Shown here: positions 40,350 through 50,662 of the stretch, one piece after another | How the letters are laid out: every line of letters begins with the position of its first letter | How positions within the stretch are numbered: position 1 is the stretch's first letter | Source of the DNA: Phenylobacterium glaciei | GTDB taxonomy: Bacteria; Pseudomonadota; Alphaproteobacteria; Caulobacterales; Caulobacteraceae | NCBI RefSeq assembly: GCF_016772415.1 | Contig: NZ_JAGSGD010000001.1 | Span: 3,249,501-3,313,500 of the forward strand | Length of the DNA: 64,000 bases | Direction of reading: 5' to 3' | The notes under the pieces: generated by a model | Told to the model about the DNA's origin: nothing | Database searches by the model: none | What the model saw: only the letters and a program-made list of their open reading frames with translations | Made by a program: the position numbers and the translations under genes

Positions 40350-43136
<2,787 letters not shown>

Positions 43137-44760: not shown

Positions 44761-45198
44761 TTAGACCATCGCGGTGCGGGCGACCTGCGCGCTAGGCAGT
44801 GGGGTGGCCGGGGCGTGACGGCGGAACTGACGGGCGACACGCTCCAGCATATCGGCGCCGCTGAAAGGCTTGATCAGGCAATCGCGGGCGCCGAGCTTCA
44901 CCGCCCGCTGGATGTCCTCGGCAGACAGCTTCTTGCCCATCACCAGCACGGGAAAATGGATACCGTCGCCCCGCGGGTTGAGGGCGCGCAGCACGTCGAA
45001 GCCGTCCATCTCCGGCAGGTTCAGCTCCAGGACTATGGCGGCCGGGCGGGCTGTCTTGATGGTCTCCAGGGCGGCGGGGCCCGTGCGGGCGACAAAGGTA
45101 TGGCAGCCGGCGAGGTCGAAACGAATCTGCAGCAGCTCCAGCACGGTGCGGTCGACGTCGCAGATCAGGATTCTGCGGCCCTGGCTCTCAAGGTTCAT
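44761..45198 (-). CDS. Receiver-domain protein with Glu in place of the phosphoacceptor Asp
   Basis: The 145-residue protein is one receiver domain with a short tail. It has ILICDVD (acidic pocket Asp14, Asp16) and the lysine in DCLIKPFSG. The phosphoacceptor position is Glu58 in IVLELNLPEMDG, and the conserved Thr/Ser is replaced (LVMGKK). Glu can mimic a phosphorylated receiver, so it may be constitutively active or serve as a scaffold. No output domain. It follows, 33 bases downstream, a gene of unknown function on the same strand. Confidence 0.88.
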   Translation of the reverse strand: MNLESQGRRILICDVDRTVLELLQIRFDLAGCHTFVARTGPAALETIKTARPAAIVLELNLPEMDGFDVLRALNPRGDGIHFPVLVMGKKLSAEDIQRAVKLGARDCLIKPFSGADMLERVARQFRRHAPATPLPSAQVARTAMV

Positions 45199-45231: not shown

Positions 45232-45624
45232 TCAGAACAGGTCAAGGTCGCCCGCCTCGTCGCCGTCATTGATGCCCTTCTCCTCACCGCCGAGGGCGCT
45301 GAACATGCGGTCGGCCAGGGCGCCGAGGGTCATCCCACCCAGCGCGTCCTCCACGGAGGCGGTCACCTCCTCGGGGATTCCGGCGCTGAGGTGGCGGGCG
45401 AAGGTCGAGAGGCTGGTGAGCTGCTGGCCCAGCAGATCGACCGTGTGCATGCCCTCCACCAGCTTCTCGCGGTGCTCCGGCGGCAGGATGGTCATCAGTT
45501 GACCGATCAGGACGTCGAGCTTCATGCAGCGGGCGCCGGCCAGTTCGATCTCCCAGGCCAGGACCCCCACCATGCTGGACACGCTGGCCTCCAACACCTC
45601 GGCGGTCTGTAGTTGCGCGCCCAT
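45232..45624 (-). CDS. Conserved hypothetical protein, partner of the pseudo-receiver
   Basis: The 130-residue protein is mainly helical: an N-terminal helix pair (LEASVSSMVGVLAWEIELAGARCMKLDVLI) and a middle helix region (LVEGMHTVDLLGQQLTSLSTFARHL). It ends in an acidic tail, DGDEAGDLDLF. Short acidic-aromatic C-termini of that kind bind receiver domains in CheZ-like proteins, so interaction with the downstream receiver is an inference. No signal peptide or membrane segment. A dyad, CCGATCT and AGATCGG (45629-45652), lies just upstream. Confidence 0.6.
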   Translation of the reverse strand: MGAQLQTAEVLEASVSSMVGVLAWEIELAGARCMKLDVLIGQLMTILPPEHREKLVEGMHTVDLLGQQLTSLSTFARHLSAGIPEEVTASVEDALGGMTLGALADRMFSALGGEEKGINDGDEAGDLDLF

Positions 45625-49945: not shown

Positions 49946-50020
49946 CGCTTAGCTTGGCCGCGAAGCCAAGCTTCACATTGCGGCGCGCAGATCGATTTGA
50001 TCGCACAGCGTTATTGCCCG

Positions 50021-50037
50021 TTGACCGAACAGGTTCG
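50021..50037. promoter_or_regulatory. Shared 17-base palindromic element
   Basis: TTGACCGAACAGGTTCG is identical to 5241-5257. It contains CGAAC and GTTCG around AG, a short perfect inverted repeat. It lies 100 bases before the response regulator start. Confidence 0.4.
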
Positions 50038-50137
50038 ACGCCGGTATCTGAGCGCCTGCCGCGCCGCCGGTCCAGACACCTCCAACCGCCGCAGCGTCTA
50101 TTTTTCTAGGTTAGATTGTAGGGCGAACCCCAACCCC

Positions 50138-50662
50138 GTGCGGCTTGAAGTCCTCAAGATCCTGGTTGTCGACGACAACCACCACATGCGGATGATGCTG
50201 TCCGAAATCCTGCGCGCCGTGGGACTGCAGAACATCTACGAGGCCGGCGACGGGGCCGAGGCCCTGCAGCAGATGCGCGCCCATCCCATCGACATCGTCC
50301 TGACCGACCTGGCCATGGAGCCGCTGGACGGCCTCGATTTCGTGCGCCTGCTGCGCAATTCCCCCGACAGCCCCAACCCGATGATCCCGGTGATCATGAT
50401 CACCGGCCACTCGACCATGCGCCGGATCAGCGAGGCCCGCGACGTGGGCATCAACGAGTTCCTGGCCAAGCCGCTGACCACCCGCGGTGTGCTGGACCGG
50501 CTGCAGAAGGTCGTCGACCATCCGCGCCCCTATGTGCGGACCGACGACTACTTCGGCCCCGACCGCCGCCGCAAGGTGGACCCCAAGTACGAGGGGCCCC
50601 TGCGTCGCGCCGCCGACCGCCAGGCCGCGGGGCCGCAGGCGCGCCTGCCCACCAAGCGCTAG
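50138..50662 (+). CDS. CheY-like response regulator with basic C-terminal tail
   Basis: The 174-residue protein has a complete receiver: Asp12/Asp13 in VVDDN, phosphoacceptor Asp57 in LTDLAM, Thr89 and Lys111. The tail after residue 125 has conserved stretches, YFGPDRRRKVDPKYEGPLRRAAD, rich in Arg. Related CheY-like proteins in Caulobacter bind c-di-GMP with Arg-rich segments, so that is possible. The start is uncertain: GTG 50138 follows directly on a stretch without other start codons, and no ribosome binding site is obvious. Confidence 0.88.
   Translation: MRLEVLKILVVDDNHHMRMMLSEILRAVGLQNIYEAGDGAEALQQMRAHPIDIVLTDLAMEPLDGLDFVRLLRNSPDSPNPMIPVIMITGHSTMRRISEARDVGINEFLAKPLTTRGVLDRLQKVVDHPRPYVRTDDYFGPDRRRKVDPKYEGPLRRAADRQAAGPQARLPTKR

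Follow-up and report, generated by a model that had tools for sequence, protein, structure and literature searches.

Bacterial pseudo-receivers (PsRs) are understood here, following a review, as proteins that are receivers by profile and lack key catalytic residues (PMC12632262). In the accessible text of this review, the examples are without DD2, D and T, possess an intact fold, commonly contain a Glu in place of the acceptor Asp, and mostly occur in larger regulators or kinase networks; how bacterial PsRs act was still called a mystery there in 2025. Osp of Rhodobacter and FixT, both single-domain receivers, inhibit a kinase without being phosphorylated, and Osp does so by binding its transmitter domain (PMC9430884). 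The Cle proteins (CleA–E) of Caulobacter, which belongs to the same bacterial family as the organism studied here, are CheY-like, work independently of phosphorylation and bind c-di-GMP by means of an Arg-rich C-terminal region. CheT of Sinorhizobium and Agrobacterium and CheU of Caulobacter are small proteins with a DxxxQ motif. Rhizobial CheT combines this motif with a CheZ-like predicted structure and binds CheR, and CheT of S. meliloti enhances the dephosphorylation of one of two CheYs (PMC12654446). CheT homologues have been noted in C. crescentus (PMC12654446), for which the accessible part of another report mentions that no CheZ homologue was found (PMC10579534).

The 64,000 nucleotides from Phenylobacterium glaciei analysed here (the window) appear to contain a two-gene module, located away from the main chemotaxis operon, that would consist of a CheT/CheU-type (CheZ-like, DxxxQ) protein and a phosphoryl-dead receiver. 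The receiver gene (44761..45198, minus strand) extends from an ATG start to a TAA stop codon and encodes a single domain of 145 residues. A profile scan matched residues 10–121 to Pfam Response_reg (PF00072, E 9.5e-20) with 71.3 bits, compared to a Pfam cut-off of 30.2. The AF2 model has a normal receiver fold (pLDDT 86.8), and the PDB structure matches listed for it are receivers. The alignment to E. coli CheY places Glu58 (codon GAG, 45025..45027, minus strand) at the position of the phospho-acceptor Asp57, Gly88 (44935..44937, minus strand) at that of the switch residue Thr87, and Lys110 (44869..44871, minus strand), which all 31 distinct orthologues share, at that of Lys109. An earlier note on this DNA had read these three positions in the same way. 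It had also stated that the acidic pocket is kept; this is true for Asp14, which aligns to CheY Asp12, and incorrect for the direct Mg2+ ligand (CheY Asp13), in whose place there is Val15 (45154..45156, minus strand). The second Asp of the DVD stretch is Asp16 and lies one position past the metal-ligand column. The position of CheY Tyr106 is occupied by Cys107. Of the residues expected for a phosphorylatable receiver, Asp14 and Lys110 are present, but Val15, Glu58 and Gly88 are found at the other positions; the protein is a receiver by profile with key catalytic residues missing and hence a PsR. With respect to its lost residues, its Glu and its intact fold it resembles the PsRs of the review; unlike most of those examples it is a single domain fixed beside a CheT-like protein, and its Asp/Glu state toggles inside one clade (PMC12632262).

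As Glu commonly replaces Asp in PsRs, Glu58 is unremarkable by itself, yet it is not a product of chance. A sequencing error at this codon, which would have undermined the earlier reading, is ruled out: GAG is also present in the three nearest relatives checked, which stem from other assemblies, and dN/dS values of 0.08–0.30 over seven comparisons, which include the E-type lineage of the window, indicate purifying selection on the receiver. For the partner protein encoded upstream, dN/dS is 0.03–0.34. A tRNA scan around the gene pair detected no tRNA.

The partner gene (45232..45624, minus strand) lies 33 nt upstream of the receiver gene and is real, as the earlier note had assumed. In a sample of 249 Caulobacteraceae genomes, 23 close homologues of the partner were found (E up to 4.6e-25), and the receiver is present beside 21 of them but missing in G111 and G217. 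In these genomes, a search with a profile of the paired receivers yielded 21 receivers with at least 170 bits (next match 141 bits). The partner is encoded directly upstream in 21/21 cases, a count that is partly circular because these pairs had themselves supplied the sequences for the profile. When the window receiver alone served as query for 149 genomes, all ten rows of this type were accompanied by the partner, and the remaining rows, which are true receivers, were without it. A collection of named loci from Phenylobacterium, Caulobacter, and unassigned Caulobacteraceae or Caulobacterales contained 41 partner loci. Among the 31 closest ones (L068–L098), the receiver lies downstream of the partner in 28 and is absent at L086, L087 and L098; these loci represent mostly the same species as the 249 genomes and are not independent of them. 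The ten more distant loci have no adjoining receiver of this kind.

The pairing is near-obligatory, and the neighbourhoods of the pairs vary; by eye, some adjoin 2-oxoglutarate dehydrogenase genes. A third gene common to all paired loci was not found, and one ORF family that occurs in 26 loci is, by position, an overlapping antisense frame. The receiver was never seen without the partner, but the partner does at times occur alone. This asymmetry suggests a receiver in the service of its partner. Because the partner is kept without a receiver in three of the 31 named loci and in two of the 23 genomes, it can presumably work alone. The adjacency of the two genes may also be due to shared expression only. 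In a mirror-tree comparison of 21 pairs, the trees of receiver and partner correlate with r 0.91; computed with no species-tree control, this value was not counted as evidence. Of the earlier proposal that the receiver is an adaptor for the protein encoded upstream, the association holds on genomic grounds, and the adaptor role itself would be a plausible reading of it. In the open-licence literature we found no report of a fixed pair of a pseudo-receiver and a CheT-like protein, nor of a PsR of this type. Pseudo-receivers, the replacement by Glu and CheT are each known.

For column counts, 49 receiver rows were reduced to 31 distinct paired orthologues. Their acceptor column (58) contains 17 Glu, 13 Asp and one Ala, that is, an acid in 30 of 31 sequences; the earlier suggestion to check the conservation of Glu58 thus led neither to Asp throughout nor to a fixed Glu. 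The second-acid column (15) contains 12 Ser, seven His, six Asn, two Val, and one each of Cys, Ala, Pro and Gly; Asp or Glu occurs in none of the 31. At the switch column (88), Gly (26) prevails over Ala (4) and Thr (1), and the following residue is Arg (21), Lys (8), His (1) or Asn (1). In the tree, the paired receivers form one clade (support 100/100) separate from 19 Asp-type relatives. The state of the acceptor column requires at least seven changes, and well-supported branches force three for Glu. L069, with an Asp at position 58, is nested in the window's own five-row clade (100/97), and its pairing is unchanged. This toggling between Glu, Asp and Ala within the paired clade implies that Glu58 is just one of the two acids that are tolerated at a site now devoid of its chemistry. 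By the same comparison, the conserved feature is the pairing and not Glu58. In these sequences, Asp65 accompanies Glu58 in 14 of 17 E-types and in three of 13 D-types, and Asp58 occurs mostly together with Asn, Ser or Thr at position 65 (10/13). Covariation between positions 58 and 65 was considered and dropped, as there are too few independent changes (p 0.5).

The same columns bear on the possibility that the protein is a weak but real response regulator, whose D-types accept phosphate, with the CheT-like protein as phosphatase and the E- and A-types as drifted copies. Asp is kept in 13 of the 31 orthologues, a receiver beside its own phosphatase would be a natural arrangement, and substitutions of DD, T or K need not fully abolish phosphorylation (PMC12632262). 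However, the metal ligand is lost in 31/31 and the switch Thr/Ser in 30/31 sequences, a basic residue follows the switch position in 30/31, and the 17 sequences with Glu, which have no normal acceptor, are still paired; in addition, the E-type lineage of the window is under purifying selection. We therefore consider this explanation rather improbable.

Weighted column entropies of the paired receivers were compared with those of the 19 true-receiver relatives. Entropy was lower by 0.59 bits in helix alpha1 (residues 17–29; 45112..45150, minus strand) and by 0.79 bits in the beta5-alpha5 loop and the start of alpha5 (KPFSGA, residues 110–115; 44854..44871, minus strand), whereas it was higher by 0.34 bits elsewhere and by 0.85 bits in the catalytic columns. 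None of 118 circular shifts of a mask comprising the two more conserved stretches was equally extreme, the mask having been picked after the entropies were seen; the alpha1 block by itself was equalled by one of 118 shifts. Residues 16, 17, 21, 26, 31, 38, 103, 110, 111, 114 and 120 are invariant in the paired receivers, and the alpha1 residues 17, 18 and 24 are unlike those of the relatives and fixed or nearly so. On this measure, constraint on the receiver is shifted from the catalytic loops to alpha1 and the beta5-alpha5 region as a putative docking face. The structure matches listed include, by title, a receiver with a rewired interface and changes in the alpha1/beta5-alpha5 region.

The output face gives a different picture. 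The earlier note had proposed that a receiver with such a Glu58 may mimic the active state permanently; on this model the receiver would be locked active and would act on something downstream, for instance the flagellar switch. Glu is indeed found at this site here and in 17/31 orthologues, and CleA of Caulobacter works without its Asp (PMC5677366). The model is not supported by the variation within the clade: the site toggles on the tree, and the losses of the metal-site acid and of the switch Thr/Ser persist whatever residue occupies position 58. Moreover, the lost Thr and the Cys at the position of Tyr106 leave no Thr-Tyr coupling, alpha4 and beta5 show less conservation than their counterparts in the relatives, and the classical output face (alpha4-beta5-alpha5) as a whole is no more conserved than in true receivers. 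A locked-active receiver is accordingly improbable, slightly more so than a weak regulator. Decay of a gene that is merely carried along with its partner would agree with the more variable catalytic loops and with the two genomes in which the partner is alone; given the dN/dS values, the 11 invariant residues and the normal predicted fold, we regard decay as very improbable.

Receivers use helix alpha1 and the beta5-alpha5 loop to dock on the four-helix bundles of kinases. The pseudo-receiver could accordingly be an inhibitor of a histidine kinase (or of CheA or an HPt protein) in the manner of Osp and FixT; it would then dock on the DHp four-helix bundle and block autophosphorylation, with the CheT-like protein as a regulator or release factor. 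One of the nearest true-receiver relatives (L002) overlaps a hybrid histidine kinase ORF. Osp and FixT are likewise without the acidic pair and unphosphorylated (PMC9430884), and like the window receiver they are single domains, theirs being active through protein binding. In contrast to the window receiver, which is tied to a CheT-like gene, they target a histidine kinase and have lost other residues. No kinase gene is common to the paired loci, what stays constant beside the receiver is the CheT-like protein, and the deviating, nearly fixed residues 17, 18 and 24 are a hint of a changed partner. Inhibition of a kinase is for these reasons unlikely, though it is the most probable of the rival explanations.

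The partner comprises 130 residues and is a predicted long helical hairpin (helices 15–44 and 49–82, pLDDT 81). A Pfam scan gave no match for it and no consistent family for 24 family members. Its own genome encodes one paralogue (37% identity, E 2.8e-13), which lies in the che operon between cheD and a CheYIII/CleA-like gene, the order being cheA-cheW-cheR-cheB-cheY-cheD-paralogue-cheYIII-cheE. Judged by the order of the Caulobacter operon, the paralogue presumably stands in the place of cheU. Gene names in this operon follow visual inspection and the analogous operon of Caulobacter, in part as described (PMC10579534). The NCBIfam profile of CheT (NF047973) was matched weakly by 16 of the 24 members (best 4.7e-5; che-operon paralogue 6e-5). 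With 12.5 bits for the window protein and 23.4 bits for the best member, the scores stay far below the curated cut-off of 200; matches in C. vibrioides are also below it. The CheZ-type DxxxQ motif, in contrast, is kept throughout: Asp63 and Gln67 (DLLGQ; 45424..45438, minus strand) are present in 24/24 aligned members. In its small size, its DxxxQ motif and its possession of a paralogue flanked by cheD and a cheY-like gene, the partner resembles CheT and CheU, from which it differs by its position away from the che operon, its pairing with a pseudo-receiver and its low score.

A direct profile comparison of the partner with E. coli CheZ (hhalign) detected no homology (probability 0.6%); likeness to the CheZ sequence is limited to DxxxQ and an acidic tail that ends in Phe. 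Fold searches with the hairpin (Foldseek, VIA-align) returned unrelated two-helix hairpins, with CheZ absent among the matches listed, and are unspecific. A comparison of the partner profile with PDB sequences produced two chance matches. In 289 genomes of the class, a sample with few Caulobacteraceae, the partner profile matched in its own genome alone. A search for the CheT family at 1e-10 in 142 Alphaproteobacteria gave no matches; the controls were silent as well, and this result has no bearing on the distribution. Further solitary CheT/CheU-like genes occur in genus g22 (L061, L063–L066 and others), without an adjoining receiver of this kind.

Another link to chemotaxis is the C-terminus GDLDLF of the partner (45235..45252, minus strand), which is common to CheD and CheU. 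All 24 aligned family members end in G[DE][LV][DE][LMF]F. A degenerate DNA pattern that comprises the tail and a stop codon occurs just three times in the 4.24-Mb genome, at CheU, CheD and the window partner, and the reversed-pattern control not once. In 60 genomes of the family, 22 sites were found compared to three for the control, and all 22 are C-termini (six of CheD and 16 of the CheT/CheU family). In these genomes, the chemotaxis-type tail is confined to CheD and proteins of the CheT/CheU family, and it connects the partner with the chemotaxis apparatus independently of the weak family score. The shared tail suggests that these proteins dock at the same site of the chemotaxis array. In the accessible literature, no mention was found of a tail exclusive to CheD and the CheT/CheU family. 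The receptor of the che operon ends in ADEWEEF, and it is a guess that the tail imitates the pentapeptide by which receptors tether CheR.

Based on these findings, we propose that the phosphorylation-dead receiver is a dedicated putative binding partner, that is, a pseudosubstrate or an adaptor, of the CheT-type phosphatase-like protein, a proposal to which we assign an even chance of being right. That a CheZ/CheT-like protein is encoded together with a dead receiver of preserved docking face is what argues for such a complex. Osp and FixT set a precedent for unphosphorylated single-domain receivers that act through binding (PMC9430884), CleA works without its Asp (PMC5677366), and CheT of S. 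meliloti is a precedent for the dephosphorylation of a CheY (PMC12654446). The CheT-type protein would dimerise via its helical hairpin to form a four-helix bundle with DxxxQ sites, on which the pseudo-receiver could dock with its alpha1 and beta5-alpha5 face like a substrate receiver. The invariant Lys110 and the acid at position 58, be it Glu or Asp, might maintain a substrate-like shape. Being unphosphorylatable, the receiver would not be turned over. As a pseudosubstrate or a regulatory subunit, it might occupy the CheT-type protein, hold it or position it, and could in this way tune the rate of CheY-phosphate erasure. Counting against a pseudosubstrate are the CheT scores far below the cut-off, the missing homology to CheZ and the unspecific fold searches; moreover, the conserved face was selected once the entropies had been seen, and the same face docks kinases. 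More tentative, and in our estimate on the doubtful side, is the specific reading that the receiver has been converted to a non-hydrolysable pseudosubstrate subunit of a CheZ/CheT-type phosphatase that is docked to the chemoreceptor machinery via the CheD/CheU tail. If the pseudosubstrate reading were true, an erasing enzyme would carry its own dead substrate as a regulator.

In this pair, a PsR has just one obvious partner, both proteins are small, and the phosphosite has natural Glu, Asp and Ala variants, so that the PsR question could be reduced to a binding and dephosphorylation assay. The pair is also of relevance to the termination of signals in Caulobacterales, and it suggests that a part of a switch was reused as a binding partner and kept in Phenylobacterium and Caulobacter.

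Compared to the Cle proteins, the window receiver is without the Arg-rich C-terminal region; by eye, residues 130–145 contain a single Arg, and by this feature the protein is not a Cle-type c-di-GMP effector. At a distance of 4.4 kb from the pair, 49997..50662 (plus strand) encodes a receiver with an Arg-rich tail (GPDRRRK...GPLRR) that resembles the CheYIII/CleA-like protein of the che operon and is probably, by this tail, a Cle-type c-di-GMP effector. Five pair loci (L068–L071 and L074) lie near a Cle-like receiver related to this one. In addition, at 40350..43136 (minus strand) the window contains an acyl-CoA synthetase (AMP-binding) ORF that is continuous with a C-terminal DUF1499 domain, which is either an unusual fusion or the result of a missing stop codon.
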